This document shows positions 2,905 to 64,000 of a stretch of 64,000 bases of DNA, piece by piece. Origin of the DNA: a virus; the IMG/VR virus record IMGVR_UViG_3300014911_000001, positions 111,797-175,796 of that record, one strand, 5' to 3'. Each line of letters begins with the position of its first letter. Within the stretch, counting starts at the first letter, position 1. The position numbers and the translations under genes are program-made. The notes below the pieces were generated by a model. That model worked only from the letters and a program-made list of their open reading frames with translations. It did not search any database and was not told the origin of the DNA.

Positions 2905-3436
2905 GAAAACTACCTTTACTGATCCGATAAATCTGCGTGTTGAGATGGATTTTTTTATGGATGGTGGAGGTGGTATAGGTCCCAAGGGACATTATGTTAT
3001 TTTACGGCATTATTTAGTTGATCAGAAGTCTGATTATTACTCGCACATAACAGGAGAAGGGCATGGCGGGCCGGCTTACAAATTTGAGGAAGCTTGTATA
3101 AAGACACGGCGAGTGCCATTTAGATCGATGCAACAGGAAGCTGACATGACTCAGATTGGTGAGGTACAGAATTATGATTATATTTACTATTTTAGATATG
3201 ATGATGTGCCGTTTGATTTACTTCCGGGTGATCATATTTATGAATTACAACCTCCTTATGATTTAGATGGTAGTGCGGATGACGAGGAATTACTCAGAGT
3301 TCCGCGTTATGCGCGTTATCGTATAGGATTTGTGCATCATTATAGAGAGCGTTCGGGGCGTGTTGAATATGTTGCAGCATTAGTAACTTATGACAGTATA
3401 GGTGGTGAAGCCCCGCTTATGAAACAAAATGGCTAA
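2897..3436 (+). CDS. Putative head-closure (stopper) protein
   Basis: 179 residues from ATG 2897, with GGTGAAGAGA just upstream; the frame is open further upstream, but there it runs inside the previous gene. The protein is rich in beta strand, Tyr and Asp, with 'LLPGDHIYEL' followed near the C-terminus by 'YRIGFVHHYRERSGRVEY'. This matches the small beta-barrel head-closure proteins (SPP1 gp16 type), where a 'd.i...' strand is followed by 'y.I..v..y....g...y'. It overlaps its neighbours by 8 bases on both sides, consistent with coupled translation of neck proteins. Alternative: another neck or collar protein. Confidence 0.45.
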   Translation: MYEKTTFTDPINLRVEMDFFMDGGGGIGPKGHYVILRHYLVDQKSDYYSHITGEGHGGPAYKFEEACIKTRRVPFRSMQQEADMTQIGEVQNYDYIYYFRYDDVPFDLLPGDHIYELQPPYDLDGSADDEELLRVPRYARYRIGFVHHYRERSGRVEYVAALVTYDSIGGEAPLMKQNG

Positions 3437-4127
3437 TAGTAATAGTACAGCGCAGTTTGTAGATCTTATTTTTGATCCACGGTTTCTTGATGCGTTGAAG
3501 TCTAATGTTATACCGAGGCCGATAAGATATGGTGAGATCTTATCCTTGTCGCAGTTATTTGGTGTTATAAAGCAGGTTATTGAGCATCTGAGGCCGCAGT
3601 GCAAGGTTTATCCGGCATATGGAAAGCATTTTTTGTATGCTTATGGTCTTGTTGATGATGAACCTGAGGCGGGCTTCAAAATTCCAGATGAGATTATCGG
3701 TTATGTACTATATAGTGCGGAGCCTGCGACGATGGGTGGTTCACAACCTGGTTCAAGTCCACAGGTGCGGCGGCCTCGTCCGGTACATAATGCTTTAACC
3801 GTAGATGTGGATTATGCTGCGCAGTTATATTACTATGCACTTGATGCGTACATTGATTTTTTCTTTTTTGCAAAGGATACACAGAGCATATATGAGTTGA
3901 TGGATTGGTTTCAGGAATTGATGTTTTCGACGCTGTCGCCTTTGTTAAAATATTTGGGTGTAGAGCAGGTTCATTTTGATTCGGCGGGCTTCGATGAATA
4001 CATGCGTTCTGTTCGACCAGAGGTTGTAATTCCGATAATGAGGTATTATTTTAGGATACAGCGTCTGTATGTTTCGTATCAGAAGATTATTAAAGCAATT
4101 TTGTTTAGTCTTATAGAGGAACAATAA
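3429..4127 (+). CDS. Putative tail terminator / tail completion protein
   Basis: 232 residues, starting within the end of the previous gene (ATG 3429). The N-terminal part (to ~100) is mixed alpha/beta, followed by a Gly/Pro/Ser linker (~100-120). A helical C-terminal half then contains 'VDYAAQLYYYALDAYIDFFFF', 'IYELMDWFQELMFSTLSPLL' and 'LGVEQVHF'. Proteins at this place, last before the sheath gene, usually cap the tail tube and join it to the neck. The helical run and final short strands fit some tail-completion proteins, but I see no diagnostic motif. Confidence 0.4.
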   Translation: MANSNSTAQFVDLIFDPRFLDALKSNVIPRPIRYGEILSLSQLFGVIKQVIEHLRPQCKVYPAYGKHFLYAYGLVDDEPEAGFKIPDEIIGYVLYSAEPATMGGSQPGSSPQVRRPRPVHNALTVDVDYAAQLYYYALDAYIDFFFFAKDTQSIYELMDWFQELMFSTLSPLLKYLGVEQVHFDSAGFDEYMRSVRPEVVIPIMRYYFRIQRLYVSYQKIIKAILFSLIEEQ

Positions 4128-7488: not shown

Positions 7489-7509
7489 GTTTTGGTATGT
7501 TGTCTTGAG

Positions 7510-7743
7510 ATGAAAGATGTGAAGATATACATTGATGATGGTATTTTATATGTGGAATTTCATGAGTTCTACGATCGGGCCGATATATTGATTTATGATG
7601 TGAAGGGCCGGCTTATTCATGAAGGGACTGCGGCCGGCTTAAGCGTCTATACATATGACATGTCTCGTTATGCAAGTGGTCCTTACATTGTTGTTATTTT
7701 GGTTAGTGGTAGAAAATATAGTAAGGTAGTCACATTGCATTAG
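7510..7743 (+). CDS. Stand-alone type IX secretion C-terminal sorting-domain-like protein
   Basis: 77 residues from ATG 7510; a TTG at 7492 is possible but lies in the terminator tail, and no strong SD is visible. Nearly the whole protein matches the T9SS type A sorting domain: 'GILYVEFHEF' then 'ILIYDVKGRLIHEG', 'YTYDMSRYASGPYIVVILV' and the final 'YSKVVTLH'. In the family this reads 'v.iyD..Gr.v......~..dls.~~.GvYiv.i..~....kkv'. In cells it is the C-terminal domain of much longer secreted proteins of Bacteroidota and relatives, recognised by the T9SS outer-membrane machine. Here it has no cargo and no signal peptide, and sits between sheath and tube genes. It could be a decoy, an interface to host surface proteins, or simply a structural Ig-like domain. 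Confidence 0.65.
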   Translation: MKDVKIYIDDGILYVEFHEFYDRADILIYDVKGRLIHEGTAAGLSVYTYDMSRYASGPYIVVILVSGRKYSKVVTLH

Positions 7744-18685: not shown

Positions 18686-21600
18686 TGGCAGTTATAAGGA
18701 AAAAACATACATATTTGCGTACTTTTACACGCAGGAAGGAGCGGGAGAAGGGCAACCGTTTTGCGAAGTTTGGACTGGGGGTTGCTGCTCTTGTGCCCAT
18801 TGTTTATTTGGTCAGGGGGCGCGGCTTCGAAAGGCTACATGATTTTCTTAAGACCTTTGCTGAGGCTTCATATAAGAAAGAGGCGCGGGCTTCAGAAGCA
18901 TCTCTATGGGCATATGGGCCTCTTGATAGGATAAAAAAGGCATTTATGGATAATCCATTTTTATCGGTACTGGGTACTGTTACCAAAAAGGAAGCACAAG
19001 GAAGGTCTGTAAGGGAGGTATTGAATAAATTAAAGGATATTGTCGAGCTCTTGCGTGAATATTATTCGGTAGCTGAAATAAGAAAATTATTTAATGAGGA
19101 TATTATTCCTTATGCTGATAAAGCGTCTAAGCTTATTGTTGAGGAGGAAAAGCAATTAGTATATAAGTATCAGTTAATGTTTGAGCGGGCGCTTAAAATT
19201 CTCACGAGGAAGATTAATGAAAAAGGGTGGCTTCCGCGAGACCCATTTCATTTTCGTCTCCTAAGTAAGTATTTACCACATAGCTACAAATTTGGATTGT
19301 TTTATGGTACGATGCCGAGTTTTTCGGCGCCTCTATTTGAGATTTCTACAGCTAGTGAGCAGTTTGCACAGATTTTCCAAAGGGAGATAAAGAATCTATC
19401 AGAAAGTGAGGTTTTACTTGGTCAACATGTTGAGCAGGTTATAAAAGATTATGTAAAAAAGCATGTAGTTGTAAATCCTGAGTGGGAGCTTGCTGCTAGT
19501 GAGGTGTTTAAGCATCTATCAGCTGAGGAGCATTTACAGGTCCGAAATCTTGTTACAAGAATTACAGAGCAGGTAGCTAAGTGGTTGCATCGTCATGCCG
19601 GTATTGATGCAACAGATTTGCCTGATGTGCATGTTGTTATAAAGGCGCAGCGTTATTATGATGTTCCTATGCTAGTTGCTCAGCTGTCGGTTGTTGATCT
19701 GCGTGGGGTCAAAAGGAGTATAGAGATCAAGCTTGGTGTTCCCCAGAAAAGTGGATTGATGGCAGCTATAGGAAATTATCCAACAGCAAATGTCAGATTT
19801 GCTCAAGGTAACAGGGTAAGGTCGATCTTTTCCTTGAAGCTGGAGCGCTTAGGCGAGATGTTTGAGCATGCCTTGAACGATTTATACGAAGGGAAGTCAG
19901 AGGATTATGTTACCAGACGCATTCATAGAATCATTGGACGATATGATTTATATGGAACTGGGCGTAATGATAAAGCATTCCAGTTGGTGCATTCCATTGT
20001 TGATAAGGACTTTAAGGATTATGCGGCTTATAATGCTAAAAAGAGATTTTTGAAGCGCGCTGCTGAGTTGGTGCTTGGTGTGAGAAAAGGCAAGTATCGG
20101 GTGTTTATGGATGCTGAGTGGGTTATGGCTGGTATATCGAGTACTGGGACTCAATATGCAGTGACTGAATCCCGCCGGCGCTTGATATGGAGTTTTGCCA
20201 TACAAGTTTTTGATGATCTTGGTAATGAGGTTGATAAGTTGGTTGTATTTATAGATCCGAAGACGATAAGCGATGAGTTCTTCATGTCGCAGGTGCGTCG
20301 TTTTGGATTATCAAAGGCAGCTGCTGAGGAGGCATTAAAAGCGGTTAGAGGTCGTGTTGCGATGCCTGCTGGATATGTCAGAGTTGATAGTGAGATGGAA
20401 GCCAGCCGGCTTATATGCAAGAAAATAAAAGACATAATTAATAAATATGGTAAGGATGATCTACTTGTTATGGGTAAGAACTTCTGGAGCTCAGAGGTTG
20501 CATTGTTGGAGCGGGCCTTTAAAGCTGACAGTAATATATTAAATTATATCAAAAGAAAGTTAGTTGATATAGAGGATATATATAGGTTGGTATATGGTGC
20601 TAAGGCTATTAACAGGTCATTAAGTGTTGAGGCTATTCTCGATTATGTAAAGGTATCGGATGAAGGATCGAAGCTATTGGGCCGGCTTCTTAATTATGAA
20701 CCGAGGGTTGAGGTCCAAGCGTTTGCTAATTTAGTTAGGTCGCTACATTTTGGTGAGCAAGATAACAGGATTGCATACATCCTATCAAAAATTGCGGAGA
20801 GCATGGTTAATAATGATCCTGAGTTGCGTGAGAGAGTACTAAGGATTTATGATATTGTAGCGAAGTCACAGGGAGCTGTTTTATCATTTACAACGCAGCA
20901 GGAGTTCATGCAGCGGGCTTACAATTATGTAAAGGAGCAATTGAAATCTGTTGGTGTTGGTTCGCCTAATGCTGCGCGTAAGTGGCGTTTTGAATATCCG
21001 TTTAATCCGGCTGATTGGGTTCCGCTATTTGTTCCCACCTTGGAGAAACAGAGGTATCAGTTAGGCCGCGGCTTACCTTTATCGGAGGCGTCGAAAAGAT
21101 TGCTTGAAACTCTTAAGAAGGAATATGCTAGGCGCGTATTAGGGTTGGGTGAGGCTGATATCAATTATCTAGGACCGGCGCTTATTTCTATGCCATTTAA
21201 GAGATTCCTAGAACAGCAGATGTTATATAATGTCCGTAGTGTATTTACGATACCTGTCTTCTCAACATTTTTCCCATTTGCTGGCGAAGGACATATGTTT
21301 ATACACAGGAGACTTACTGAGCTATCGACAGTAGTGCAGGAGGTGATTAGTCAGAAAATTCCGATAAGTAGGTTGGAGAATATGGATGCTCGTATGCAGT
21401 TGTGGGTGAAGCTTTTTGAATCTGCCATGGAGGCTGTTAAGACATCTCCGAAGTTGGGTGAGTTAATTAAAAGCAAATTTAATAATGATATTGTTAAGTT
21501 TTTGAGAGCTGTAGATTTGTCGATTGTTATTGGTAGATATCGTGGATGGATAAAGGATTCTGAGCGGTTGGCTAATGTTTTAGTGCAGTTGTTTCCGGGG

Positions 21601-24600
21601 TTTCCTATCAAGCGTTTTGTTGGTCATGCTATTGGTAGGAATCTAAGAGGTCTTACTATAAAGCAGTATATGGCACTGCGCCGCGGTGTGAGTGCACCAA
21701 AAATAAATTTGGGGGATATATGGAAGGAGATATTTAGCGACAAAGCAGCTGCTCATCCATTATACGACATGTTGAGTAATGATAATATGTTGAAACTTGG
21801 ATTGATGGATGAGTCTGCTCAGGCAGGTTATGCACAATGTGCATTAATAAGGGAAATCTTTAATAGATTGGTAGAATCGGGGCTTCATCTTACCAACCCA
21901 GAGCAGTACATCAAGTATGGTACTTTCGTAATGACGGACCGGCTTCAGCTTGGTGATAAGGTTGTAAAAATTGGTTATAATGGTAAATTGGTTTTTAATA
22001 AAATAATTACATCTTATGATCTTACAGGTGTACCTTCATTAGATTTTTCACTTACCTATGAGATAGTTTTGCCAACTCCCTTAAAGTGGGTTACATATTA
22101 TCAAAAAGGTATGGGGACAGCACAGCGCTGGTCCTTAAGCCAATTTCCATATTATCTTATAGAACCGGCACGTTTTATGGAGCGTGGTGAATTGGGCATC
22201 TTTATAGAGACAGAGATGACCCGGCTAAAGGAGGCATTAATTAAAAAATATGGTGTGCGGGAAGCCGCCAATGTTATGTCAAAGATGACAAAGGACCTCA
22301 ATGATTATATGAATAGAGTGGTTAATTACGCTATTAAGGAGCACGGGCTTCCCATCAAACTTACCAGTCCGTTGTTTATATTCAATCCCAAAATGATGGC
22401 AATAGAGGGCAATTATGATTTGTTTAACACATTGACAACAGAACAAAAGGGATTATTGTGGACAGTATTTTTGGAGGGTTTACCTGAGAAGGTGGGAAAG
22501 ATTGGTGGATATCCAAGCTTGTTTGATTATCTTGAGGCTAAATTCAAGGAGCATGGTATTGTTGTAACTCCCCAAGAAAGGAGGATATTCAGAAGATATG
22601 TACAGAAACAATATGCGTTGTATAAGAACAAAAAGATAAGCGAAAAGGAATTTTTTGAAACAGTCTTGCTGAAGGACATAGCTGATGAGAGGATACGAAA
22701 CTGGTTTAGCAGATTATATTATGGAGATGATAGGGAGCAGCTGGCGCGCTTATTCGATATATATCAGATAAAATTAGGTAAAAGGGTTGTTGAGCTTATT
22801 GGTTTGGGCCGTCATAGCCCCTTTGGGTTGGGTGATACGGCTCTAACTAGTACCTACAAAAGTTTTGTTCGTATACCAATGCAGATGTATTGGGATATCC
22901 ATCGCTGGCCTCATTTAGAGGGTATGGCTCAATTTATTGATGCCTTCCAAGCTCAGAATCTACCTATTTATGAGACACTTCTTAAGATGGCTGATATGCT
23001 AAAAATGAGTCAGTCATCTATTGATGAGTTGGTGAAGGCAGGGGGTATCTATGCTGTACCGGTGCGGCGCTTCTTTGACTTTGTGCGCAAACATATGAAT
23101 CTTCTTAGGTCAATAAGGGAGGATATATATGTACCAGAAAAGATATTAGAGGAGGCTCATGGTGATATGGTTCGTGCTGTCCAAATGATGCTTGATCTGG
23201 GTGTATCGTTAACGGATTTTAAGGAGAATGCTATAAAGTTTGAAGGCGCGCAGGTCCGTGCGCAGGTTGCCAAGGAAGTGCAGGATTTCCTCAGACAGAT
23301 ATTTGAGGAGGCGCAAGGGAAGCGCGTTGTTATCGATGTAGGCAGGGCAATGTCTGTTTCCTATAAGAACCTTGAGTCGATGATTGGTCAGAATGATGCT
23401 ATTATTAGGGATCTTATAAAATATTTAGAGAGAATGGGTTACAACAAGCTGAAGTATATACCATTGGGGACAAGGGAATTTTGGGATCTGTCATTCCACC
23501 AGATTGGTAGAGACCAAGTTATTGTTGAGCCTCAGGTTAAGAAGTTGCTGCAATTAATGGCATCGATTGCATCAATTAAGGGTAAGGTGCAAGCAACTGG
23601 TGTGCCATCGGCGCAGGTTAAATTTGAAGAGAGAAATGTATTTTATAAGCAGTTTGTTAATTATCTTGGTTCTATAGCTAGTAGCTTTATAGGCCGGCAA
23701 TCCTTATGGGCACGCACTGCTGTAACACATCTTCCTGGTGTTGAGGGTGTTGGACTTCCGTCCTTCTTGCTTTTTAATAAGTCGCGGCTTCTTGACACAG
23801 TTGTATGGGAGCCATTTACGACCTATGTTGATGCTTCTGTTATTGAGAATCTCAGAGGTATGTTGGAAGCCGCCGGCTTCTCCAAGGAATTTATCGATGC
23901 TTTTTACAAGGGCAGTCCTAATGTAGCATTTTTAGGTATGCCCGGACGTATGCCATTCCACCCCGGTATGGGATTGATAGGATTTATAAAGAGTTTAACC
24001 AAGCAGCAGAAGAAACATGTTTCATCTGTAAGCGATGCCGTTAAAATATATATGGATCCTTTATTGATAACGAAGGTTCTATTAGGTGACTGGGATACAG
24101 ATAGATTGATGGCGTTACTAACAATGACATCTCCGAAGGGTGCTGAGGATATAACAAGGATATGGAAGTGGGTCTATGGTTTATCAGATCAGGATGTTGC
24201 ATTTCTTATGTCGTATGGTAAGTTTAGAGCTGGTGACAGGAAGGCTATAGGTGAATTGCAGACATTTTTTACGTCTGTTTTTGAGAAGATGACAAAAGAG
24301 CAGAAGGAGGCATATATACAGAGCAAAGAGTTTGAGGATATGCTCCACAAAAGATTATCAGCCATTGTTGCAAGAATGAAGGAAGGATATTTGAGCTGGT
24401 TTGGTAAGTCTGAGGCAGAAGAGTTAAGCGAGCGGGTCGAGTTTTTAGTGACAGGTGATGTGACGAAGATACCGACAACGGAGGGTAAGGTTATTTATTT
24501 ACCGACTATATTAGCGCAGATGCGTGGTTATACGATGAAGATTGAAAAAATGTGGCCATTTATACAGGAGGCCAAGGAAATTGCGAGGAAGGAAGGAATT

Positions 24601-25746
24601 CCATTCAAGGAGGCATTAGCTAAGCATATGGCTGACATTTTTGCTAATAGGGAGCTTAGGAATGTACTGGGTACATCGATGGCTGGTAAAGCTGATGTGA
24701 TAAGAACAGGGTATGCATTAGCATTGCAGCATATATATAAATTAAGAGCTGAAGGGCTTTCATATCAGGATATAAGTAAGATCATGGGATTAAGCATTCC
24801 AGAAGCATTTGGTCAAGTATTTGATAAATGGATTGCGGCGGGTTCTGAAAGACAGAAGATGATTCTTACATTTGAAAGGGAAATACTCGATAAGGTATTA
24901 AAGATGAAGCGTGGTGGTTCTCCAGAGGCGATGGCTGAAGCAATAAATAATCTTGCTAATGAGTTGCTGGAGTATAGTAAGGTTTCATCATCTGTTGCGA
25001 AGAAAGGACATGAGTTAATAGATAAATTTGTTGCAGAAATTGATTGGGAGAAGATGGGATTGAAGCCGCGTGATGCTTTATACATGATGGGGTGGTTATT
25101 AAGAAACACGCAATGGACTATCCGTAATTCCAGTTATCTTGTTACGAGACAATCGATAAATAGAGGTCTTATTGAAGCATATGCGATGTTTGCATCCCGT
25201 TTGCTGAGTCAACCGACGGGTCCTACGGTAAGCCCGACATTGTTAGATGCATTGTCGGGTGAGGTATTAAGGGGCATGGCAAGGGAGCCGAAGCCATTGA
25301 ATGAATTACTTGGCGAGCAAACAGCAAATATGAGGTTTAGGGAGGCATTGGCGGGCTTCCTTACAAAAACATTTGAGAATTTATCTAAATCAAGAAAACA
25401 TAGATTGCTATTAGCAGGTGCATTGGCTGGGATAGCGGGATATATATTAAGCGGGCCGAAATTAAGAGGAGATATATTTTCATTTGGTATCGATATAGGC
25501 ACAGTGCATGGATTGGAGCCGAGCTTCTTTGATGGTAGATGGACATACCCTGAGTTGCCCCGAGGGGAGGATATAAGGGGTTTGGAGAATCCATATCATA
25601 AAAGGAAAATTTATATTCTACGTAATATAAGGCGCAGGAACCCTGCATTATTTAATGAGTTAAGGAGGCGCGGTATAATTCAAGAGTGGGAAATGTCGGC
25701 GCCTTATGATTACCCACGCAGAGAAAGGAAGGTGATCTATGTATGA
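18685..25746 (+). CDS. Giant virion protein with RNA-polymerase-like (DPBB) and exonuclease-like regions
   Basis: 2353 residues, TAATG-coupled to the previous gene. The N-terminus is basic with one hydrophobic segment (~30-46, 'LGVAALVPIVYLVRG'). Residues ~473-700 resemble a DEDD exonuclease fold (F-M-D476-A-E478-W, then 'LLVMGKNFWSSEVALLERAF'), but the usual later Asp residues look replaced. Residues ~1545-1810 resemble the catalytic double-psi beta-barrel region of QDE-1/YonO-type RNA polymerases found as virion proteins in crAss-like phages: 'VAFLGMPGRMPFHPGMG', then 'IYMDPLLITKVLLGDWDTDRL'. Asp1802, Asp1804 and Asp1806 stand where the metal-binding D-x-D-G-D triad would be, with Thr in place of Gly. 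Downstream helices with 'MAGKADVIRTGYALALQHIY' also fit. The C-terminus has a hydrophobic helix (~2255-2275). It would be packaged and injected. The polymerase call is a hypothesis from motif order. Confidence 0.45.
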   Translation: MAVIRKKHTYLRTFTRRKEREKGNRFAKFGLGVAALVPIVYLVRGRGFERLHDFLKTFAEASYKKEARASEASLWAYGPLDRIKKAFMDNPFLSVLGTVTKKEAQGRSVREVLNKLKDIVELLREYYSVAEIRKLFNEDIIPYADKASKLIVEEEKQLVYKYQLMFERALKILTRKINEKGWLPRDPFHFRLLSKYLPHSYKFGLFYGTMPSFSAPLFEISTASEQFAQIFQREIKNLSESEVLLGQHVEQVIKDYVKKHVVVNPEWELAASEVFKHLSAEEHLQVRNLVTRITEQVAKWLHRHAGIDATDLPDVHVVIKAQRYYDVPMLVAQLSVVDLRGVKRSIEIKLGVPQKSGLMAAIGNYPTANVRFAQGNRVRSIFSLKLERLGEMFEHALNDLYEGKSEDYVTRRIHRIIGRYDLYGTGRNDKAFQLVHSIVDKDFKDYAAYNAKKRFLKRAAELVLGVRKGKYRVFMDAEWVMAGISSTGTQYAVTESRRRLIWSFAIQVFDDLGNEVDKLVVFIDPKTISDEFFMSQVRRFGLSKAAAEEALKAVRGRVAMPAGYVRVDSEMEASRLICKKIKDIINKYGKDDLLVMGKNFWSSEVALLERAFKADSNILNYIKRKLVDIEDIYRLVYGAKAINRSLSVEAILDYVKVSDEGSKLLGRLLNYEPRVEVQAFANLVRSLHFGEQDNRIAYILSKIAESMVNNDPELRERVLRIYDIVAKSQGAVLSFTTQQEFMQRAYNYVKEQLKSVGVGSPNAARKWRFEYPFNPADWVPLFVPTLEKQRYQLGRGLPLSEASKRLLETLKKEYARRVLGLGEADINYLGPALISMPFKRFLEQQMLYNVRSVFTIPVFSTFFPFAGEGHMFIHRRLTELSTVVQEVISQKIPISRLENMDARMQLWVKLFESAMEAVKTSPKLGELIKSKFNNDIVKFLRAVDLSIVIGRYRGWIKDSERLANVLVQLFPGFPIKRFVGHAIGRNLRGLTIKQYMALRRGVSAPKINLGDIWKEIFSDKAAAHPLYDMLSNDNMLKLGLMDESAQAGYAQCALIREIFNRLVESGLHLTNPEQYIKYGTFVMTDRLQLGDKVVKIGYNGKLVFNKIITSYDLTGVPSLDFSLTYEIVLPTPLKWVTYYQKGMGTAQRWSLSQFPYYLIEPARFMERGELGIFIETEMTRLKEALIKKYGVREAANVMSKMTKDLNDYMNRVVNYAIKEHGLPIKLTSPLFIFNPKMMAIEGNYDLFNTLTTEQKGLLWTVFLEGLPEKVGKIGGYPSLFDYLEAKFKEHGIVVTPQERRIFRRYVQKQYALYKNKKISEKEFFETVLLKDIADERIRNWFSRLYYGDDREQLARLFDIYQIKLGKRVVELIGLGRHSPFGLGDTALTSTYKSFVRIPMQMYWDIHRWPHLEGMAQFIDAFQAQNLPIYETLLKMADMLKMSQSSIDELVKAGGIYAVPVRRFFDFVRKHMNLLRSIREDIYVPEKILEEAHGDMVRAVQMMLDLGVSLTDFKENAIKFEGAQVRAQVAKEVQDFLRQIFEEAQGKRVVIDVGRAMSVSYKNLESMIGQNDAIIRDLIKYLERMGYNKLKYIPLGTREFWDLSFHQIGRDQVIVEPQVKKLLQLMASIASIKGKVQATGVPSAQVKFEERNVFYKQFVNYLGSIASSFIGRQSLWARTAVTHLPGVEGVGLPSFLLFNKSRLLDTVVWEPFTTYVDASVIENLRGMLEAAGFSKEFIDAFYKGSPNVAFLGMPGRMPFHPGMGLIGFIKSLTKQQKKHVSSVSDAVKIYMDPLLITKVLLGDWDTDRLMALLTMTSPKGAEDITRIWKWVYGLSDQDVAFLMSYGKFRAGDRKAIGELQTFFTSVFEKMTKEQKEAYIQSKEFEDMLHKRLSAIVARMKEGYLSWFGKSEAEELSERVEFLVTGDVTKIPTTEGKVIYLPTILAQMRGYTMKIEKMWPFIQEAKEIARKEGIPFKEALAKHMADIFANRELRNVLGTSMAGKADVIRTGYALALQHIYKLRAEGLSYQDISKIMGLSIPEAFGQVFDKWIAAGSERQKMILTFEREILDKVLKMKRGGSPEAMAEAINNLANELLEYSKVSSSVAKKGHELIDKFVAEIDWEKMGLKPRDALYMMGWLLRNTQWTIRNSSYLVTRQSINRGLIEAYAMFASRLLSQPTGPTVSPTLLDALSGEVLRGMAREPKPLNELLGEQTANMRFREALAGFLTKTFENLSKSRKHRLLLAGALAGIAGYILSGPKLRGDIFSFGIDIGTVHGLEPSFFDGRWTYPELPRGEDIRGLENPYHKRKIYILRNIRRRNPALFNELRRRGIIQEWEMSAPYDYPRRERKVIYV

Positions 25747-25910
25747 AAATTATAGTTAGAGTACCACCAAATGCAGATATTGTTCGTGTTGAAGCGGCAA
25801 TACGTAATGCTTTGATGGCGTATGATTTAGATGTACGGTCGATACAAGTGGTAACAACAGCTTTCGGACAGGAGGAGTATGCCAGAGGACTCGAAAAAAC
25901 CGAGGCTTGA
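25743..25910 (+). CDS. Small 55-aa protein overlapping both giant neighbours
   Basis: ATG 25743 overlaps the TGA of the 2353-aa gene (ATGA) and runs in frame to TGA 25908-25910, 32 bases into the next gene. It fills the otherwise empty 132-base gap between the two giant genes. The product starts 'MKIIVRVPPNADIVRVEAAI', continues 'RNALMAYDLDVRSIQVV' and ends in a charged tail. The beta-alpha-beta pattern resembles the C-terminal end of the tape-measure-like protein (IVRSLQAQGINASVSIM), so it may be a detached copy of that small module. Function unknown. The compact coupling argues that it is a real gene. Confidence 0.55.
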   Translation: MKIIVRVPPNADIVRVEAAIRNALMAYDLDVRSIQVVTTAFGQEEYARGLEKTEA

Positions 25911-28900
25911 TTACAGGACAGCTATTATAGGTACTGTTCCTGTGATTGTTACAGATTTTAGAGTTGTTGAGAATTTTTCCTACCAGCAGATACAGACGCT
26001 ACGTATGGATAATAATGTTATTTACCAGATACCCGGAAGGAATTTGTATGTTATTATTGGATTAGAATTTCCTGATGGTTATTCCATTAATACAGGACTG
26101 CGTGAGCTCCATGCCATGATGTTTCTTGCTCCCATTGTACCTATTTATAGTCCGTGGCTTAATGACATGGTTATTGCATCGTTTGATCAATATAGAGGGC
26201 TTGCTGAATTAATGGGTGTTAATACAGATGTAAACATTTATGCATTGCGTCGTTTAACGATGAGATCTGTTGAGTCGCCTTATGCTATTGGTGTTGAGAT
26301 GGAGATTGCTCCTATGGATTTAGATGCGGCGCGGCTTAAACCCCAATTCCTTGTGGATGAAGAGGCAGCGCGGGCTAAATCTGAATTTATAGCGAGGTTG
26401 TTTGAGTTATATGAAACGATGAAGAGAAGTGAGGACCCGCTGGCTTATTTGGATGGCTTTACATCTATCTACAATGATTACAAGAGGGCTGTTGCTAATA
26501 AGGTTGTCGACTTCCTATGGCAGTCAGAATTATTTAAAAGGTGGATAAGCATAATGTATCCTGAGGGTGATAAGTCACTTTTACCAGTTCAAGGGGTGCG
26601 GCTTAAGCGGCAGCTTGGCATATGGCGGCAGACACCGTTTGCTAATATTGTTATTCATTATCTTCATATGGCTGATGATATCGTATCGTTGCGAGATGAA
26701 ATCCATAAGTATGTTTCAGATGTGGCTAGTAGTACAGCGAAAATGATCCGTGATTATGTAGCTGATTACGAACAAATTCAGCAGGTTGGCGCGCCTCGAC
26801 GATTTTTTCAAGTATTACAGACATTATATAATAGCATTAAAGGTGGCATACGCACCCGTGTTGATAGTTCATTAATGGGTACTATAGCGTTTGGTAATCA
26901 GATAAGAGAGATGTTACTTGAGGTTGCGTTACGCATGGATAATGGGCAGAGGGGTAAGTTTACTAACTATGTGCAAAGGATTCTATCTCTGACGGCGGGG
27001 CCTAATCTAGTAGTCCCTGAGATGATGATGGAGGGTGAGTCAGCTATTGTTACCATGTCTGATTTTCTTACTAGATTTTTTGCGGAATTAGGTAAGAAGT
27101 TAGATACGGATTCATACAAAATTTTTGTTGATTTATTTGCTGATGTTATGTCTGAACGTATTGCGTATTGGGAGTTGTTTTCAAAGGTGATGAAATATGA
27201 GACATTTGATTTTGGTAAGTATCGTGCTACTCCAACCAGATGGGAATATACCGTAACTAATAAATTCGTACCTCTGAGGATTGGTGATGCAGTAGCTCCC
27301 TTGTTGCAACATCTTGGTACTGACAGTCCTATATTTAGGGTGCAATATGCATGTGGTGATGGTCTGGCCATAAGGCAGCTAAAACAGTTAAGAGATGATG
27401 TTGATAAGGCTGTGCAACAGATAAATGAAATAGGGTCGTATTTCCCTTGGATTACGAGATATATAGAGCCTATAATATTATCCTCAACGGACGGCTTAAT
27501 TGAATTTCTGGGCATGCAGCATGCGGTTTTAGATTCAGTAAGTATTAATCCGATGGAAGAAGCCGCGATGGTTGCTGAGGCTACATGTACATTTGTTGCC
27601 TCTGATATAACGATTTTTGATTACGAGCAGTTTGAGTTTGCCGATACTGTTGGTGCCAATAATTTATCATGTCTATTATTATTCTATGCATTGCGTAAAT
27701 GGTACCAGGAAATTTTTGGCAAAGACCTTCCTCCGAGTGGTACTGTTGCAGAGACGGTGCAGCCATTAAAGGAAGGTGAAGATATTTCGAAGCTAAGGAT
27801 TCCGTTTAAATTGTTTGATGTTATGGATTCACAGAATGTAACGAAGCGTGCATTTCAGTATGCGATGACATTATCCAAAGCTGAGAATCAGAATTATTAT
27901 AACTTCACTATCTATAATTCAGATAAAAAGGCTGTATATGCATTAAATGAGGGTGTGGTTACTAACGTAACTAATAATCTGGTTGATGGTTATATAGTTC
28001 GTGTGAAAAACGGTGATTTTGTAACGGAGTATAGGAATCTGGGGAAATTGGCAGAGGATATTAAGCCGGGCGAAAAGGTGTTGGGTGGACAATATTTAGG
28101 GGAGGCGCGCTTCTTTGCTAGTGGAACATATCCAACCGAAGTACAGGAAAAAGAAGTTAAAATGCTACCTAACCTATTAGGATTAGGGGTGCCTGAGGTT
28201 GTTCAAGAATACAAGAAGAAAGTAAAAACATCTGGTCCTGCGCCTTATGGGGTGTTTGTATTATTTATGTATAAAAATATTCCATTGGACCTAGAAATTT
28301 ATAAAGGTAAGGAGGTTTTTGAAAAAGCAGCTAATATATCTGCGCCCACAGATATATATGCATATTTTTGGACCCATACTAAGGATGATAAAATAACATG
28401 GGCTGGGCATACCTATGATGTGAAAAATAATCCTTATGTCCAAGGATATGTAAATAGTGTCTTAGGTGGGATACCTATTTTAGAATCAATTTCGAATCGT
28501 GTTTTTGATGAGAAGACATTTTTTGATGTCCTTATTCGATTACTGATGGAGAAATGTATGACATGTGTATCGTCATTTGATATTGCTGGCTTGGAGCAGA
28601 AGCTTGCAAATGAATTGGGTATGGAGCCGGCTTCTGCAACTGATAAAGCTGTTCCAACACAGGAGGAATATGTGCCCGTTCTTGGCCGTCCATACTTTAC
28701 CCACCCATCATTGGAAGAGATGAAACTACCAGAGCCACAATTACCTCCTAAGGTAACTCCGGCACCAGAGGAAGGAAAAATGGAAGTACCTGAGGAGAAA
28801 GTAGAGAAACCGCAGCTTTCTGCACCAAAAGAATTACCTGAGGAGGCCCCGCCAGTAGAGGTGCCGCCTAGTGAACCACCAATGATAGAAGAAGGTGAAA

Positions 28901-56171: not shown

Positions 56172-58550
56172 ATGCTTTTATTATGGACAAATATCCCGGA
56201 AGCACGGGGATATATTGTTTATAAAGCCCCGCACTTTGTCTATCCGACAGGAAAGTTGTCAGAACCAAAGTGTGTCTGTAAAGGGGATAGTGATACATCG
56301 GACCCGGGCTTCAGCGTACCCTCCTATGTTGACGATGGATTAAAGGGGTTTTTAAGCCCGCCAGAAGGTTATAATTTTTATGCCTATACCGAAAGCAATC
56401 ATTTGGAGGTTGATACAGGTGTTTATGTAGTTGTTGCGATTAATGGTATTTGTGCATCAAGTTATTCAAATCCTGTTAGCATTGTTTCTGAGTTGGAGGA
56501 AAAAACCATATCAGTAGCTATAAGGGAGGTGCCTGTTGATGATACTGTTGTAGCCAAGCGTTTCTGTCGGTGGGGTGTATTTTTAACAAAAGTGCATTGG
56601 AATTTTAATATTGATAGCATTATAAGTACTGACTATAATGTTGACATTGAATTCAGCACTCTAACCAGCGGTTCCTTTGTACTTACTGGTGTACCTCCTA
56701 CTGGTAGTGAGGATGTATCAGGTAGGTCATTTTATAAGTATGCTTTCGAGCCATTGGTCATAAAGGTCAGTACTGATGGCTGTTCTATCAGTCAAGTAAA
56801 TATTGCTATTGATGTTGTTTTGATTGAATACCCGCTAGATGTTATAAGGGCTGCCTTGGAGAAAACAACGGTTATAGATCGTTTTGATAAACCTGAGCCA
56901 TCCTTAGATTATGTCACAACGGGTTATCTTAGGAAGCCGTTGATATTAGATTGGATTTATGTCGACACATCTGGTTCTTTAGATGCATATTTATTATTGC
57001 ATAAGCGCGGGCTTTATCATCATTATGATTTGTCATTGGATAATAAGTTTAAGCCGCCGCTTGTTTTAAGTGATATGGATGATCTAGCACTATATACTAA
57101 AGGTGACACAGGTTCTGTAGTTATGGTAAGTGAAGGCCCGCTTCAGGTAAAGCAAGATAAATTACCTGACATGAAGGATGTTTATTTTGAGGGCGGCTTC
57201 CTCTTAGGGCATGATAGAGAGATAAGGCGTATATATCTGTTCAAGGGGGCAATCAAACATATTGATGTCCAATTTTACAAGCAGCATGATGATGCCGAAC
57301 TGACGGTTTATACACCACAGGCGGGGCTTCAAACATTTTTCATCCCTAAGGATATTTTATCTGCACAGTTCGTTACTGACATTCCATTTGATGCTGGTTC
57401 ATATATAGTAATAAGTTCAACAGAAGAGCATCCTATTACTGTGGATTGTGATGTGCGCATTGAGATATGGAGAGAGTATCCACCTTGCATATGTGAAGTT
57501 GCTGTTGAGGAAGAGGAAGAGGAGGGCGCGCGGCCTCTAATTTACGACGGCACCTATTTTGAAGGCGGGGCTAATGGCTGGCGCTACAAGACATATCCTT
57601 TCCAAGCACATCTATCCAAAGTAATGTTCCTTGGACACGATTTATTTGATGTACCCGTGCGATACAACTTCTATGTTAATGGGGACCTAGTAAAGACGTA
57701 TGATCTTAATTTCTCAACTAGCCGGCTTCTACAATTTGATTTAGATATAACAGTCCCGTCTAATGGTGTCCTTGTTATTGAGCAGATTATTATGGATCGT
57801 ACAATGTATGAGGTTACAAGGGATGTTGATGTCATATGGTCGCTTACCTTCGAGGGTGAAGGAGCATATGTAGCAACATACACGGCGGCTGATTCTGTAC
57901 TCCTGAATTCACCATCATCTAATAGTACAACAGAATTCCAGCTTATTGATGCTATTACATTTCCACATGCTGTTCATTTGACGGGCATGAGTGCTTCGGC
58001 GGCTTCTGGTAGCGATAATGCTATATACAAGGTTGAAATACCGGATTTAGATGTTAGCTATGAATTTACAAGTACATATCTATGTGATCCTGTTGTAGAG
58101 GTGCCGCCTTACACTGCTATAAGGGCTTATTATAAGGTCAATGATCCTGAAGGGGATGAGGTTGCATACCCACAAGTCCTTTTGCATATAGGCTTTTTGG
58201 CTGAACGTGAGGAGTTTGTTGATCTTGATAATGTGGGTATATTTTGGTTGAGGGAGCATAGCGGGAGTCTGTATGACACTATTACTCATCAGCTTGCTCT
58301 GCCAAGTGGTACCTATAGGTGCATCTTCTTGCAGGCATCTGTTTACCAAACGCCGTTGGATGAAGCAGATATTATTATTGATATAGGAGGAAGCGGAGAT
58401 ACTCTTAATGTGAAGCCGGGGCTTCATAACATTTACAAAACAACGGATTTCACCTTTGGTAATATGGATACAGTTACAGTAAGTTCAAGTGACCCGCGGC
58501 TTATGCACGGTATTGTTATCATGGCTATCTATCAGAAGGTTGAGACATGA
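56172..58550 (+). CDS. Fibronectin-III-like and beta-sandwich tail protein (792 aa)
   Basis: ATG 56172 begins directly in an FN3-like domain ('LLLWTNIPEARGYIVYKAPH', closing 'VYVVVAINGICASSYSNPVS'), residues ~1-105. Further sandwich domains follow. The middle contains an acidic spacer (EEEEEEGARP, ~450-460), and the later part has repeated 'lp-sGtY-rciflqA' type strands. FN3 domains are common on exposed parts of phage tails, where they are thought to touch host surfaces weakly. No enzyme motif. Confidence 0.5.
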   Translation: MLLLWTNIPEARGYIVYKAPHFVYPTGKLSEPKCVCKGDSDTSDPGFSVPSYVDDGLKGFLSPPEGYNFYAYTESNHLEVDTGVYVVVAINGICASSYSNPVSIVSELEEKTISVAIREVPVDDTVVAKRFCRWGVFLTKVHWNFNIDSIISTDYNVDIEFSTLTSGSFVLTGVPPTGSEDVSGRSFYKYAFEPLVIKVSTDGCSISQVNIAIDVVLIEYPLDVIRAALEKTTVIDRFDKPEPSLDYVTTGYLRKPLILDWIYVDTSGSLDAYLLLHKRGLYHHYDLSLDNKFKPPLVLSDMDDLALYTKGDTGSVVMVSEGPLQVKQDKLPDMKDVYFEGGFLLGHDREIRRIYLFKGAIKHIDVQFYKQHDDAELTVYTPQAGLQTFFIPKDILSAQFVTDIPFDAGSYIVISSTEEHPITVDCDVRIEIWREYPPCICEVAVEEEEEEGARPLIYDGTYFEGGANGWRYKTYPFQAHLSKVMFLGHDLFDVPVRYNFYVNGDLVKTYDLNFSTSRLLQFDLDITVPSNGVLVIEQIIMDRTMYEVTRDVDVIWSLTFEGEGAYVATYTAADSVLLNSPSSNSTTEFQLIDAITFPHAVHLTGMSASAASGSDNAIYKVEIPDLDVSYEFTSTYLCDPVVEVPPYTAIRAYYKVNDPEGDEVAYPQVLLHIGFLAEREEFVDLDNVGIFWLREHSGSLYDTITHQLALPSGTYRCIFLQASVYQTPLDEADIIIDIGGSGDTLNVKPGLHNIYKTTDFTFGNMDTVTVSSSDPRLMHGIVIMAIYQKVET

Positions 58551-59461
58551 AAAAGATAATTTTTATAATATTGATTATGGTGGTGGCTTCCATATCACAG
58601 ATTATCAGCGTTGGTGAGGATAGAGCGATTATCAACTTTGGTTCTTATGAAGGCGCAAAACTGTTGATCTATGATGATGTCCATGAGCTGTACTGGTATG
58701 ACGGTTCTTGGAGCAATGATCCTAATGAGCTGGAGGGTTATACATCAATACAGTACCCTATGGAAATAACAGGGTTGGTACCGGGCAGAAAATATTGTTT
58801 AAAGGTAGTTGGATTATCAGGTACTGCTTATAATGCACTTTCATCCACCTATTGTTTCAACACACTTGTTAAACCTATCAAAAGGTTTACAAGTTGGGAT
58901 AGCATTTATGTGGATGTAGGTGTTTTCGATACCATAAAAGGGAATTTTATGATGTTTTTCCCTTATAATATGGAGCCACCTCATATAAGCGGGCTTCTCT
59001 ATTTAAAGAGATCTGGTGATGTTGATACGCTTATGTATTGGAATGGGGTTCGTTGGGTTAAACTTGTGGAAGTAGGAAGTGCGGGGCTTCACACATTATA
59101 TGATGGTTCTGGCATCCGTGGTGGTGCTTATAATGGTACATCTGATGTGACATGGTATATTGAACCGAGTGCAACTATTGATACTCTTGGTGATAGTATT
59201 TTTGTTAAGGATAATTCCATAGATAGTATAAAAATAAAAGATAAGTCAATTGCGACATCTGATATTGCACCGACGGGTGAAAATGGGCAGGTATTAATGA
59301 TTGAAGATGGTAATGTTACATGGAGCAATGCTTCTGGTACAGCTCCAAGTGACCATAGCTTTGATGTGCTTATAACTAATGAATCATTAGAGAAAGAGTG
59401 GAGAACACAGCCGGGCTTAAAGAGAGCAATGACAACAAATTTTGTTATATATAGATATTAA
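58547..59461 (+). CDS. Signal-peptide fibre-like protein (304 aa)
   Basis: ATGA-coupled to the previous gene. The N-terminus 'MKKIIFIILIMVVASISQII' is a classical Sec signal peptide, odd for a virion protein. Residues ~30-110 form an FN3-like domain; residues ~195-260 contain a 'IKDKSIATSDIAPTGENGQV' stretch followed by 'VTWSN', a motif frequent in fibre proteins and in secreted proteins of FCB-group bacteria. The chain ends 'TTNFVIYRY', a tail shared in pattern with the next two proteins. It may be an exported adhesin, or a fibre whose N-terminal hydrophobic segment anchors it. Confidence 0.55.
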   Translation: MKKIIFIILIMVVASISQIISVGEDRAIINFGSYEGAKLLIYDDVHELYWYDGSWSNDPNELEGYTSIQYPMEITGLVPGRKYCLKVVGLSGTAYNALSSTYCFNTLVKPIKRFTSWDSIYVDVGVFDTIKGNFMMFFPYNMEPPHISGLLYLKRSGDVDTLMYWNGVRWVKLVEVGSAGLHTLYDGSGIRGGAYNGTSDVTWYIEPSATIDTLGDSIFVKDNSIDSIKIKDKSIATSDIAPTGENGQVLMIEDGNVTWSNASGTAPSDHSFDVLITNESLEKEWRTQPGLKRAMTTNFVIYRY

Positions 59462-59473
59462 TAGGAGGTAATA

Positions 59474-61429
59474 ATGAAAATATTAAAAATAGTAGGAGCT
59501 ATCTTACTGTTGTCATCGGTGGTGTTAGGTGTTGTACCAAGCAAGCTTATGTATATGGGAAGGTTGGCTGATGCTGATAATCATGTTGTTAATGGATATG
59601 TAGAGATGAGGTTTAAGTTTTATTCAGACAGTACAGGGACAACGCCTTTTAAAACGATTGAATTTGTTGGTGATGATTCCATTGAGGTTTCGGCGGGTTA
59701 CTTCTTTGTTGTTATGGATTTATCAGATGTTATTGATTCACTTAACCAGACGGTCTATCTTGAGGTTGATATTTATAACAAAAGCACATCAAGTTGGGAA
59801 ACATCTGCAGAGAGGGAGAGGCTTGTAGCGCAGGTACCATATACAATATGGGCCCACCGATCGGCTGTGGCTGAAACTGCAAATGTTATTAGTTCTGGTG
59901 CTGTGCAGACAAGTACACCTATAACAGGTGATGGAACCTCTAGTAGTCCTATTTCGCTTACATATGGATCGGGGCTTACACTTTCAGGATCTGTTTTGAT
60001 CGTAGATTTTGATAATAGTACTATTGATACTAATTCAGCAGGTAAGATAAGAGTTAAACCCAGTGGTATTACATCAACAGAGATTAATGATGATGTTGTG
60101 TTTTCCAAGGTGCAGAATGCTTCTGGGACATTACAATTTGCAGTTACTGATGGTAATGCAGCATTACAGTTTGCGGCTTCGGGTATGAATTCAGTTTCAT
60201 TCGATTCGGATAACCATAGAGTGACATATACCGCAACAGCTAATACCAATGTTCCTATTACAGGAAATGGTACATCCGGATCTCCTCTTAGTTTAAACTA
60301 TGGTACTGGACTTACATTATCGGGATCGGATCTTATTATTAATGAGAGTGATATTCCATATACGCCGTCAGATGTATCTGATTGGAGTGGTAGTGTGGAT
60401 CCCGGGGATGTAAATGATGCATTAGACCAATTGGCTAGTAGAACTACCAATCTTGAAAGTGGTAGCAATAATAATTATATTCGTAATCAATATTCATCTG
60501 CACAATCAGCAAGTTTTTGGATTAGTGGAAAGGGCAAAGCCAGTCAGTTAATTGCTGTGGATACTTTATTCCTAGGTGATATTTTAAAAATATATTTGAA
60601 GGGAGATACAATATTCTATGCATCTGATTCAGTATTAGATTTTGGCGGCGGCTTAATAATTGAGAAAGATAATGATGTGAAGGTAACAGCTGATCTTTAT
60701 ATTCCGAGTGCAACAGTGAATACTGCGGCAAGTACATTGTTAGCTATAACAAATGGCAAAGTAGAAAAAATTCTAAAATCAAGTGTGACGGCTGGTGTAT
60801 CTTCTATTACCGGTGGTCTTGGTCTAGAACCTGATGATGCATCAACTGGTGATGTTACAATGACTGTTGATATGACGGAGCTTCATCTTAAAGGGTTGGT
60901 TGCAACCACATATGATTCGTTGAGGGTAAAAATAGATGGTAATACAATATGTTTTGGTGGCTCTAATGAATTACAGGTTTGTTATGGTGGTATATCAACA
61001 AATCATATCAGTGACGGTACAATTATTGATAATGATATATCTTCCAGTGCAGCTATACAGTGGACGAAGATAAGTAAATCAGGATCTTCCATAGATGATT
61101 TAGGTGATGTAAATACGAGTTCAGCGGCTTCAGGGGATATTTTGTATTATGATGGTAGTAAGTGGACGATTCTTTCGGCTGGTACAAGTGGCTATGTACT
61201 TCATACGAATGGAGCTGGGGCGGCGCCTTCATGGGGTACAATGGCTGATTTAATAGCAGGAGATGGTCTAAAATATACATCAGCTGGAAATTATAATGGT
61301 ATAGATGATAAAACACTTCAAATAGATATAGCAGATTCATCTCTAACATTTTCTGGTTCTAAGTTAAAGGTTTCATTAGGCAAGGCGACCTTGACAACAA
61401 CGAATTATAAAATATATAGAAATTATTAA
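59474..61429 (+). CDS. Signal-peptide fibre-like protein, paralogue A (651 aa)
   Basis: AGGAGG SD precedes ATG 59474. Sec-type signal peptide (~1-20, 'MKILKIVGAILLLSSVVLGV'). Residues ~22-130 form a beta domain beginning 'VPSKLMYMGRLADADNHVVN' and ending 'QVPYTIWAHRSAVAETANVI', the pattern of many secreted proteins in FCB-like phyla ('g.l.d..g.p..g.....f.iYd...' to 'vPYa..A..a..a'). The remaining ~500 residues are Ser/Thr/Gly/Asp-rich repeats typical of trimeric fibres, with 'GSPLSLNYGTGLTLSGSDLI', 'ISDGTIIDNDISSSAAIQWT' and 'IDDLGDVNTSSAASGDILYY'. The end is 'TTTNYKIYRNY'. It is a tandem duplicate of the next gene, of equal length. Confidence 0.6.
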   Translation: MKILKIVGAILLLSSVVLGVVPSKLMYMGRLADADNHVVNGYVEMRFKFYSDSTGTTPFKTIEFVGDDSIEVSAGYFFVVMDLSDVIDSLNQTVYLEVDIYNKSTSSWETSAERERLVAQVPYTIWAHRSAVAETANVISSGAVQTSTPITGDGTSSSPISLTYGSGLTLSGSVLIVDFDNSTIDTNSAGKIRVKPSGITSTEINDDVVFSKVQNASGTLQFAVTDGNAALQFAASGMNSVSFDSDNHRVTYTATANTNVPITGNGTSGSPLSLNYGTGLTLSGSDLIINESDIPYTPSDVSDWSGSVDPGDVNDALDQLASRTTNLESGSNNNYIRNQYSSAQSASFWISGKGKASQLIAVDTLFLGDILKIYLKGDTIFYASDSVLDFGGGLIIEKDNDVKVTADLYIPSATVNTAASTLLAITNGKVEKILKSSVTAGVSSITGGLGLEPDDASTGDVTMTVDMTELHLKGLVATTYDSLRVKIDGNTICFGGSNELQVCYGGISTNHISDGTIIDNDISSSAAIQWTKISKSGSSIDDLGDVNTSSAASGDILYYDGSKWTILSAGTSGYVLHTNGAGAAPSWGTMADLIAGDGLKYTSAGNYNGIDDKTLQIDIADSSLTFSGSKLKVSLGKATLTTTNYKIYRNY

Positions 61430-61441
61430 GGGGGTGGAACA

Positions 61442-63397
61442 ATGAAACGCTATATAGCCATAATTGTTTTGTTGTCCTTTACGCTATCATTTGCTCTTGT
61501 GCCCATGAAAATTGTGTATAAAGGGCGGCTTACTGATGCTAATAATAAAGTGCTGAATGGTACTTATGACATGATATTTAGAATTTATGATGGTGGTTGT
61601 AATAGTGATTGCTCGGAGTGTACAGGTACCAAGCTTACCGATGATACGGTATCTGTTGAAGTGAATGATGGTTACTTCCATCATGTTATTGATCTATCGT
61701 CTGTATCATTAGAAAAATTAAATAAGCAACTGTTTTTGGAAATATGGGTTAAATATGGAGATTTTGAAAGGCTGTGCCCTCGCGAGACGCTATACACGCG
61801 GGCTCCTTATACTATATGGGCGAGATCAAGTGCTGTGGCTGAGACAGCAAATGTAGTGGGGAGCGGGGCTGTTAATACAAGTGCGCCTGTTGCAGGTGAT
61901 GGGACAGCAAGCAGTCCTATAACATTATCATATGGAGGCGGGCTTACCCTATCAGGTAGTGCATTGATAATCGCATTTGATAATAGTACTATTGATACCA
62001 ATTCTGCTGGTAAGGTTCGTGTTAAACCCGGTGGCATTACATCGACGGAAATTAATGATGGAGTTGTATTTTCATCTATACAAAATAGTTCTGGTACTGA
62101 ACAGTTTACTGTTACTGATGGCAATACCGCATTACAATTTGCTGCATCGGGGATGAATTCCGTTTCGTTTAATTCAACTTATAACCGTATTACTTATACA
62201 GCGACGGCTTCAGTAAGTGCTCCTATCACAGGTAATGGAACATCAGGATCGCCTATAGGCTTAAACTATAGTACGGGGCTTACATTATCTGGTTCCAGTT
62301 TGATTATAGATGAAAATAATATCCCATATACTCCTAGTGATCTAACGGATTGGAATGGTAGTGCTGATCCGGGCGATGTTGATGATGGTTTAGATCAATT
62401 AGCTGATCGTGTGAAGTCTATTGAAGGTGGTAATAATACGAACTATATTCAAAATCAGTATGGTACAGCTCAGTCAGCTAATTTCTGGATTGGTGGAAAA
62501 GGCAAGGCTGGTCAGCTTACTGCTATTGATACATTGTTCCTTAATAATGTGCTAAAGATTTACCTAAGTGGAAATACAATATATTATGCCTCGGATTCCG
62601 TTTTAGATTTTGGCGGTGGCTTAATAATTGAAAAGGACAACGATGTGAAAGTTAATGCTGATCTTTATGTTCCGAATGCATCAGTGAATTCATCGGCAGA
62701 AACGCTATTGGCTATAACAGGTGGTAAGGTAGAAAAGATATTGAGGTCTAGCGTTACAGCTGGCGTATCGTCTATCACTGGTGGTTTAGGTCTCAATCCT
62801 GATGCTGTGACAGAGGGTGATGTTGTAATGACTGTTGATATGACAGAGCTTCGTCTTAAGGGATTGGTGGCAACTACATATGATTCACTAAGGGTCAAGG
62901 TAGATGGCAATACTATATGTTTTGGTGGTTCTAATGAGTTGAAGGTTTGTACTGGTGGAATATCAACGACTCACATTAGTGATGGAACTATAGTTGATAA
63001 TGACATAAGCGCCACAGCTAATATAGCATGGAGTAAAATTAACAAATCTGGTTCATCGATAGATGATATAGGGGATGTTAGTACATCAGGGGCAGCAAAC
63101 GGTGCGCTTCTTTACTATAATGGATCATCATGGGTTGATTTATCCCCAGGTACAAGCGGTTATGTCCTAAGAACTAATGGAGCAGGCTCGGCGCCTTCAT
63201 GGAGCACACTAAATAGTTTATCAGCAGGTGATGGACTTACATATGTTTCAGGTGGGCCATATAATGGTATGAGTGATCTGACGCTAAAGGTTGATATAGC
63301 TGATTCATCTCTTACTATTATAGGTGGCAAGCTTGCTGTTACCCATGGAAGCCCGGTGGCTACGTCTAGTAATTTCAAGTTATATAATAATCATTAA
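61442..63397 (+). CDS. Signal-peptide fibre-like protein, paralogue B (651 aa)
   Basis: AGGGGGTGG precedes ATG 61442. Signal peptide 'MKRYIAIIVLLSFTLSFA'. The N-terminal beta domain (~19-130) differs clearly from paralogue A and has extra Cys ('GGCNSDCSECTG', 'ERLCPRETLYTRAPYTIWA'). From ~135 on it is closely similar to A along its whole length (e.g. 'DFDNSTIDTNSAGK' against 'AFDNSTIDTNSAGK'). This pattern, variable head and conserved stem, suggests different binding specificities on a common stalk. It ends 'SSNFKLYNNH'. Codons differ widely between the copies, so the duplication is not recent. Confidence 0.6.
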   Translation: MKRYIAIIVLLSFTLSFALVPMKIVYKGRLTDANNKVLNGTYDMIFRIYDGGCNSDCSECTGTKLTDDTVSVEVNDGYFHHVIDLSSVSLEKLNKQLFLEIWVKYGDFERLCPRETLYTRAPYTIWARSSAVAETANVVGSGAVNTSAPVAGDGTASSPITLSYGGGLTLSGSALIIAFDNSTIDTNSAGKVRVKPGGITSTEINDGVVFSSIQNSSGTEQFTVTDGNTALQFAASGMNSVSFNSTYNRITYTATASVSAPITGNGTSGSPIGLNYSTGLTLSGSSLIIDENNIPYTPSDLTDWNGSADPGDVDDGLDQLADRVKSIEGGNNTNYIQNQYGTAQSANFWIGGKGKAGQLTAIDTLFLNNVLKIYLSGNTIYYASDSVLDFGGGLIIEKDNDVKVNADLYVPNASVNSSAETLLAITGGKVEKILRSSVTAGVSSITGGLGLNPDAVTEGDVVMTVDMTELRLKGLVATTYDSLRVKVDGNTICFGGSNELKVCTGGISTTHISDGTIVDNDISATANIAWSKINKSGSSIDDIGDVSTSGAANGALLYYNGSSWVDLSPGTSGYVLRTNGAGSAPSWSTLNSLSAGDGLTYVSGGPYNGMSDLTLKVDIADSSLTIIGGKLAVTHGSPVATSSNFKLYNNH

Positions 63398-63412
63398 TAA
63401 GGAGTAGTTGAT

Positions 63413-64000
63413 ATGAAGCCGCGGCTTCTTCTACTCATCAGCATTCTTATGATTATTAATACATGTTTAGCAGGTGTGCCTAAGGTATTGATGATAAAGA
63501 GGCAACTGGCCAGTAGTGATGGATCTGTCATAAATGGGGATACGACTATTGCCATATGTATATATGATGTTGGATGTAGTGGTAGTGATTGTCCTGATGC
63601 ATGTACGGGCAGTCCTATAGTATGTGATACGCAGGTAGTAACTGTAAGCGGCGGCTACTTCTACTTCAAATTAGATTTATCATCAGTGGATGATTCATAT
63701 TTATCAGATACTCTCTATCTTATGGTTTCAGTAAAAAATGGTGGATCTTATGAGGATCTATGTCCTAGGGAGACTCTTTATGCGACGCATACATATGCAC
63801 TGAGTTCACATATTGCAGATAAATCATATAATAGTGATAGTTTGGGCGGACATCCACCGAGCTATTATTTAGACAATACAGTTGACACATTTATAGCATA
63901 CTGGAGTTATATAAGGGAAATGCCTTCAGGTTTCGCCGATGGGATAGATGATACAGGTCACTATGAACCCAAAGATACTTTTATAGCATACTGGGATAGC
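63413..64000 (+). CDS. Signal-peptide fibre-like protein, third in series (3' end outside window)
   Basis: Opens at ATG 63413 behind AAGGAG and remains open to the window edge (196 residues seen). Signal peptide 'MKPRLLLLISILMIINTCLA', then the same N-terminal domain type as paralogues A and B: 'GVPKVLMIKRQLASSDGSVI', a Cys-rich stretch 'CSGSDCPDACTG' and 'EDLCPRETLYATHTYALSSH'. It then continues 'DSLGGHPPSYYLDNTVDTFI' and a second 'DTFIAYWDS' repeat, a different stem from A and B. The signal peptide's Arg-Leu codons contain another GC-rich ...CGGCTT motif copy. Confidence 0.6.
   Translation, partial: MKPRLLLLISILMIINTCLAGVPKVLMIKRQLASSDGSVINGDTTIAICIYDVGCSGSDCPDACTGSPIVCDTQVVTVSGGYFYFKLDLSSVDDSYLSDTLYLMVSVKNGGSYEDLCPRETLYATHTYALSSHIADKSYNSDSLGGHPPSYYLDNTVDTFIAYWSYIREMPSGFADGIDDTGHYEPKDTFIAYWDS

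Follow-up and report, generated by a model that had tools for sequence, protein, structure and literature searches.

The window analysed here spans 64,000 nucleotides, from base 111797 to base 175796 of a virus record that is 175,796 bp long. The record encodes a large terminase (PHROG E 5e-29), a portal, a tail sheath and a baseplate wedge, as well as a primase/helicase, a DNA polymerase and a ribonucleotide reductase, and is a genuine tailed phage of the myovirus-like type. A PF00589 integrase was not found anywhere in the record. Relatives in other metagenome contigs are mostly 90-99% identical. A terminase search of genome contigs returned 0 relatives and no integrated copy, and therefore names neither a host nor a prophage.

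Downstream of the sheath and baseplate genes, in the tail/late module, the first-pass annotation had reported four consecutive genes starting at 58547, 59474, 61442 and 63413; the ORFs were confirmed at these positions (Table 1). The cassette is co-directional and tightly packed, with gaps of -4, 12, 12 and 15 bp from the upstream gene through gene 4, and purine-rich ribosome-binding sequences precede genes 2-4. The upstream gene and gene 1, which lie on the same strand, probably belong to the same late operon. Searches of Pfam, NCBIfam and PHROG identified no family for any of the four proteins.

The contig ends within gene 4, but a complete copy is present in a sister contig, IMGVR_UViG_3300021492_000002 (L009), which spans the join and encodes a protein of 697 aa (L009:13930-16023). 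The gene 4 repeats continue in the first kilobase of our record, where a direct join would be out of frame, so that repeat copies are probably missing. Given the repeats at both record ends and the whole gene in L009, the assembly probably broke or collapsed within gene 4. When more viral contigs with the cassette were sought with three proteins, only L009 was found.

Table 1. Coordinates of the cassette, its upstream neighbour and their features within the window
Feature	Positions	Strand	Description	Basis
Upstream tail-region gene	56172..58550	+	792 aa, no signal peptide; 4-bp overlap with gene 1	
Gene 1	58547..59461	+	304 aa; signal peptide, weak fn3-like region, repetitive fibre-like C-terminus (end TTNFVIYRY)	
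Gene 1 signal peptide	58547..58612	+	about 21-22 aa, MKKIIFIILIMVVASISQIIS	heuristic
Gene 2	59474..61429	+	651 aa; signal peptide, secreted-protein domain, fibre-type repeats	
Gene 2 signal peptide	59474..59530	+	19 aa, predicted cut ...VVLG/VVP	heuristic
Gene 2 secreted-protein N-terminal domain	59531..59860	+		A1 and A4 models
Gene 2 fibre module	61115..61234	+	GDILYYDGSKW...LHTNGAGAAPSW	pelagiphage and cellular matches
Gene 3	61442..63397	+	651 aa; gene 2 paralogue (67% identity)	
Gene 3 signal peptide	61442..61495	+	18 aa, ...LSFA/LVP	heuristic
Gene 3 secreted-protein N-terminal domain	61496..61834	+		mixed alignment
Gene 4, 5' part	63413..64000	+	196 aa; contig end cuts DTFIAYWDSIRNIP..GFADG repeat	
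Gene 4 signal peptide	63413..63472	+	20 aa, ...NTCLA/GVP	heuristic
Gene 4 secreted-protein N-terminal domain	63473..63784	+		mixed alignment

Signal peptides in the cassette and elsewhere in the record

Signal peptides were called with a home-made heuristic (positive n-region, h-region and -3/-1 rule), which selected 19 of the record's 211 ORFs; shuffled N-termini gave an expectation of 2.6. All four cassette genes were called, in agreement with the earlier claim that each begins with a clear signal peptide. Only one further ORF of the structural module, w25879, was called; the call is weak and seems spurious. By reading, a canonical lipobox is absent from the four N-termini; gene 4 has only INTC, which is INAC in the sister phage. 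An outer-membrane barrel was not found in the four proteins. A link to a type of secretion known as T9SS had also been proposed, and it is unsupported for genes 1-4, none of which matched Por_Secre_tail or any other T9SS sorting domain. Cysteine makes up 1.86% of the mature signal-peptide proteins and 0.90% of the others, but a parity check showed no preference for even cysteine counts in the former; disulphide pairing is thus unsupported by parity, and oxidative folding has no more than weak support.

Further ORFs with such N-termini occur elsewhere. Six lie far from the tail module at record 18362-26976 (L003/L004; 18362, 19738, 19986, 21010, 21417 and 23893); five are signal-peptide-like calls and 19738 was recognised by eye. 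They are cysteine-rich and some contain fibre-like stretches. Small signal-peptide ORFs at record 2553-3026, 3571-4059 and 76871-77413 resemble outer-membrane barrels; two end in F, one has a weak DUF2715 match, and the predicted structure of the protein at 2553 has a pLDDT of 29. A convergent homologous pair with signal peptides (record 81141-81830, + strand, and 81831-82538, - strand; 38% identity) shows, on inspection by eye, a C-terminal likeness to the last part of T9SS sorting domains (DxRGRR..VY); NCBIfam gave it no T9SS match. An 83-aa ORF at window positions 7492-7743, situated between the tail sheath gene and the virion gene that comes next, matches DUF3244 (E 1.8e-7, passing the cut-off) and, below the cut-off, Por_Secre_tail.

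The N-terminal domain and its cellular relatives

Genes 2-4 have in common a domain of about 110 residues that is absent from gene 1. The gene 3 copy is modelled as a beta-sandwich (pLDDT about 90 over residues 1-100). With this model, Foldseek gave 0 matches at E <= 0.001, and its non-significant matches were only Ig-like and macroglobulin-type sandwiches. The domain matches neither a Pfam family nor a PHROG virion-attachment family, and tblastn of phage and plasmid records recovered no relative of it. In three near-identical siphovirus-like contigs (L066, L067 and L068), which are unrelated to this phage, a signal-peptide gene with the same domain sits between capsid and tail genes.

Relatives of the domain are widespread in cellular genomes. 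The first-pass annotation was right that the last three genes share an N-terminal domain, but its description as typical of the FCB group is too narrow, as HMM searches found relatives in several phyla, including records of Omnitrophota, Eisenbacteria, Chloroflexota and Planctomycetota. Of 12 bacterial genomes pre-selected for holding a relative, 11 gave a hit with a profile built from the phage domains alone (best E 6e-12). In the phylum to which the Eisenbacteria locus belongs, the same profile, at a strict cut-off, detected the domain in 5 genomes out of 47. With a wider profile, it was detected in 22 genomes out of 117 from the phylum that includes the Omnitrophota locus, and in 8/8 genomes of another group. 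The heuristic places a signal peptide immediately ahead of the domain in all three phage genes and in 70 of the 75 cellular ORFs (71 distinct in all). The cellular arrangement is ...A/[VI]P..INYQGRLTD, and the spacing from cleavage site to domain is identical in genes 2-4. Recognisable neighbours of the cellular genes, judged by eye, are chromosomal (for example, hydrogenase subunits and glycine hydroxymethyltransferase) and not phage genes. The phage genes resemble this unnamed family of secreted proteins in signal peptide, spacing, domain and some fibre-like modules, but differ from it in their tail-operon location, their long branch and, for genes 3 and 4, extra cysteines in the domain.

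Phylogenetic analysis places the three phage domains in one clade (100/94 support) on a long branch, in a tree that is unrooted, is based on 106 columns with one row (VIR_L067) shortened by hand, and names no donor. This topology fits one acquisition and later duplication, and genes 2-4 probably go back to a single captured gene that was then duplicated within the phage. For the direction of transfer, we rely on how broad the cellular family is. The suggestion that the proteins were captured from a host is therefore well supported as capture from cells, for genes 2-4 only, because signal peptide, spacing and some downstream modules match cellular proteins whose neighbours are chromosomal. From these comparisons the phage appears to hold, in genes 2-4, the whole export unit of a class of secreted surface proteins.

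The values of dN/dS relative to the sister phage (0.11-0.15 for the four genes, with gene 1 at 0.15) indicate that all four are under purifying selection between the two phages. The domain is the slowest-changing part and the remainder changes two to ten times faster; changes in the signal peptides are few and conservative.

Fibre-type modules and the adjoining gene

The earlier label of fibre-like holds for genes 2-4, which have module matches; for gene 1 it applies only by virtue of a repetitive C-terminus and weak sub-cut-off matches (fn3 E 0.16, failing the cut-off). The gene 2 module (GDILYYDG...NGAGSAPSW) is also found in small proteins of pelagiphages (HTVC048P, HTVC024P and MedDCM-OCT-S30-C28) whose genes lie close to that of the tail fibre and which, unlike gene 2, have neither the secreted-protein domain nor a signal peptide. 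The modules of gene 3 were assigned by its paralogy to gene 2. Gene 4 matches the PDB tail fibre gp9 (E 9e-6) through the common motif PTNSQDAATKAYVDA (AATKAYVD motif); a PDB sequence search with gene 2 returned nothing. Behind the domain, cellular secreted proteins carry GFADG repeats and an AATKAYVD-type stretch as in gene 4, and one carries the GDILYY.GS.W module of gene 2. Therefore, the modules alone do not prove a virion protein. None of the phage's own proteins without a signal peptide has the fibre modules of genes 2-4, and direct paralogy to a virion fibre, of which the cassette would be a decoy copy, is accordingly unsupported.

The next gene after gene 4 lies outside the window (record 1102-2520) and lacks a signal peptide; its counterpart in the sister phage contains a DNRLRE domain. 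Identity between the two is about 95% in the first 80 residues and 17-42% across most of the C-terminal part. A conserved N-terminus with a hypervariable C-terminus is the usual pattern of virion receptor-binding proteins. Given this pattern and the lack of a signal peptide, the gene is a better candidate for that role than the cassette genes, and its product is probably the receptor-binding protein of the virion. Next come the barrel-like signal-peptide ORFs at record 2553 and 3571 and a putative holin at 3036 (by eye). Small holin-like proteins are encoded at two distant sites in this phage genome (record 3036-3275 and 74429-74824), and the two are homologous.

Where the fibre-like products may act

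Signal peptides in all four proteins, joined in three of them to a domain of secreted proteins, suggest that the products are probably on the surface of the infected cell and not in the virus particle. We propose that the four genes are a late, co-directional cassette, presumably expressed late, whose fibre-like products would leave the cytoplasm through the Sec system of the host and be cleaved by signal peptidase. Once mature, the proteins would work in the periplasm or on the outside of the infected cell, and their fibre modules may bind surface glycans or receptors. Our best guess at the benefit is that phages would be kept from adsorbing again to cells already infected and to the debris of lysis (superinfection exclusion or receptor masking). 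We give a probability of roughly 0.58 to this reading, in which the cassette encodes late Sec-exported envelope proteins, perhaps with a receptor-masking role like that of T5 Llp. The first-pass annotation had listed export to the infected cell surface among several outcomes; it stands as the likeliest consequence of the signal peptides and the cellular secreted-protein match, rather than as something observed. The annotation's uncleaved N-terminal segment, serving as an anchor for the fibre-like proteins, is possible.

Alternatively, the products could be ordinary virion tail fibres assembled in the cytoplasm, with a hydrophobic N-terminus that is inert or kept as a membrane-active or anchoring segment. 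The cassette lies between baseplate/tail and holin-like genes, the usual place of virion fibres; its N-termini are conserved and its C-termini faster-changing, and the pelagiphage modules and the AATKAYVD motif, as in a solved tail fibre, are in keeping with such a role. However, the N-terminus retains its charge, hydrophobic core and a cleavage site at the cellular spacing, and is called as an export signal by the heuristic, unlike that of a cytoplasmic fibre protein. The domain behind it has matches among secreted proteins but in no PHROG virion-attachment family, three separate paralogues have kept both signal peptide and domain, and a better receptor-binding candidate without a signal peptide adjoins (record 1102-2520). 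We regard virion fibres as the main, if tentative, alternative, less probable than export to the envelope.

It is improbable that the cassette consists of moron-type genes, which would be independent of the lytic cycle and would benefit a cell that carries the phage for long, or as a lysogen, by making it adhere or by converting its surface. The domain gene of L066-L068 does occupy a moron-like position between capsid and tail genes, but no PF00589 integrase was found in our record, the terminase search of genome contigs found no integrated copy, and the cassette is tightly spaced within the tail operon, where a separate transcription unit was not seen. Slightly less probable still is that the fibres are Sec-exported, folded outside the cytoplasm and attached to virions no earlier than in the periplasm or after lysis; if so, part of the adsorption apparatus of a tailed phage would be assembled extracytoplasmically.

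For the preferred reading, envelope export, the closest parallels are T5 Llp and T1-type Cor, which are likewise phage-encoded and are exported to the envelope, as is predicted for the cassette products (PMC9586334). The llp gene is adjacent to that of the receptor-binding protein pb5 (PMC9586334), and this arrangement suggests the adsorption-blocking role. Llp differs in being a small periplasmic lipoprotein, whereas the cassette proteins are large, fibre-like and without a canonical lipobox. PblA and PblB of Streptococcus phage SM1 are phage proteins that act on the bacterial surface as adhesins, but they reach it via holin/lysin permeabilisation of a Gram-positive host, whereas the cassette proteins have their own predicted Sec signal (PMC2920869). 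In the openly licensed literature we found no description of fibre proteins with a Sec signal in tailed phages.

A wider phage programme acting on the host surface, as had been suggested, is plausible, because further predicted signal-peptide genes lie outside the window and some resemble outer-membrane barrels. The known exported phage proteins that alter the host surface are mostly small lipoproteins or membrane proteins. If our reading is true, a cassette of large fibre-like proteins equipped with the secretion unit of a cell, and lying in the tail operon of a tailed phage, would link the 'fibre-like' secreted proteins of cells to phage fibres, and would make it possible to test concretely whether infected cells carry decoy fibres of phage origin.
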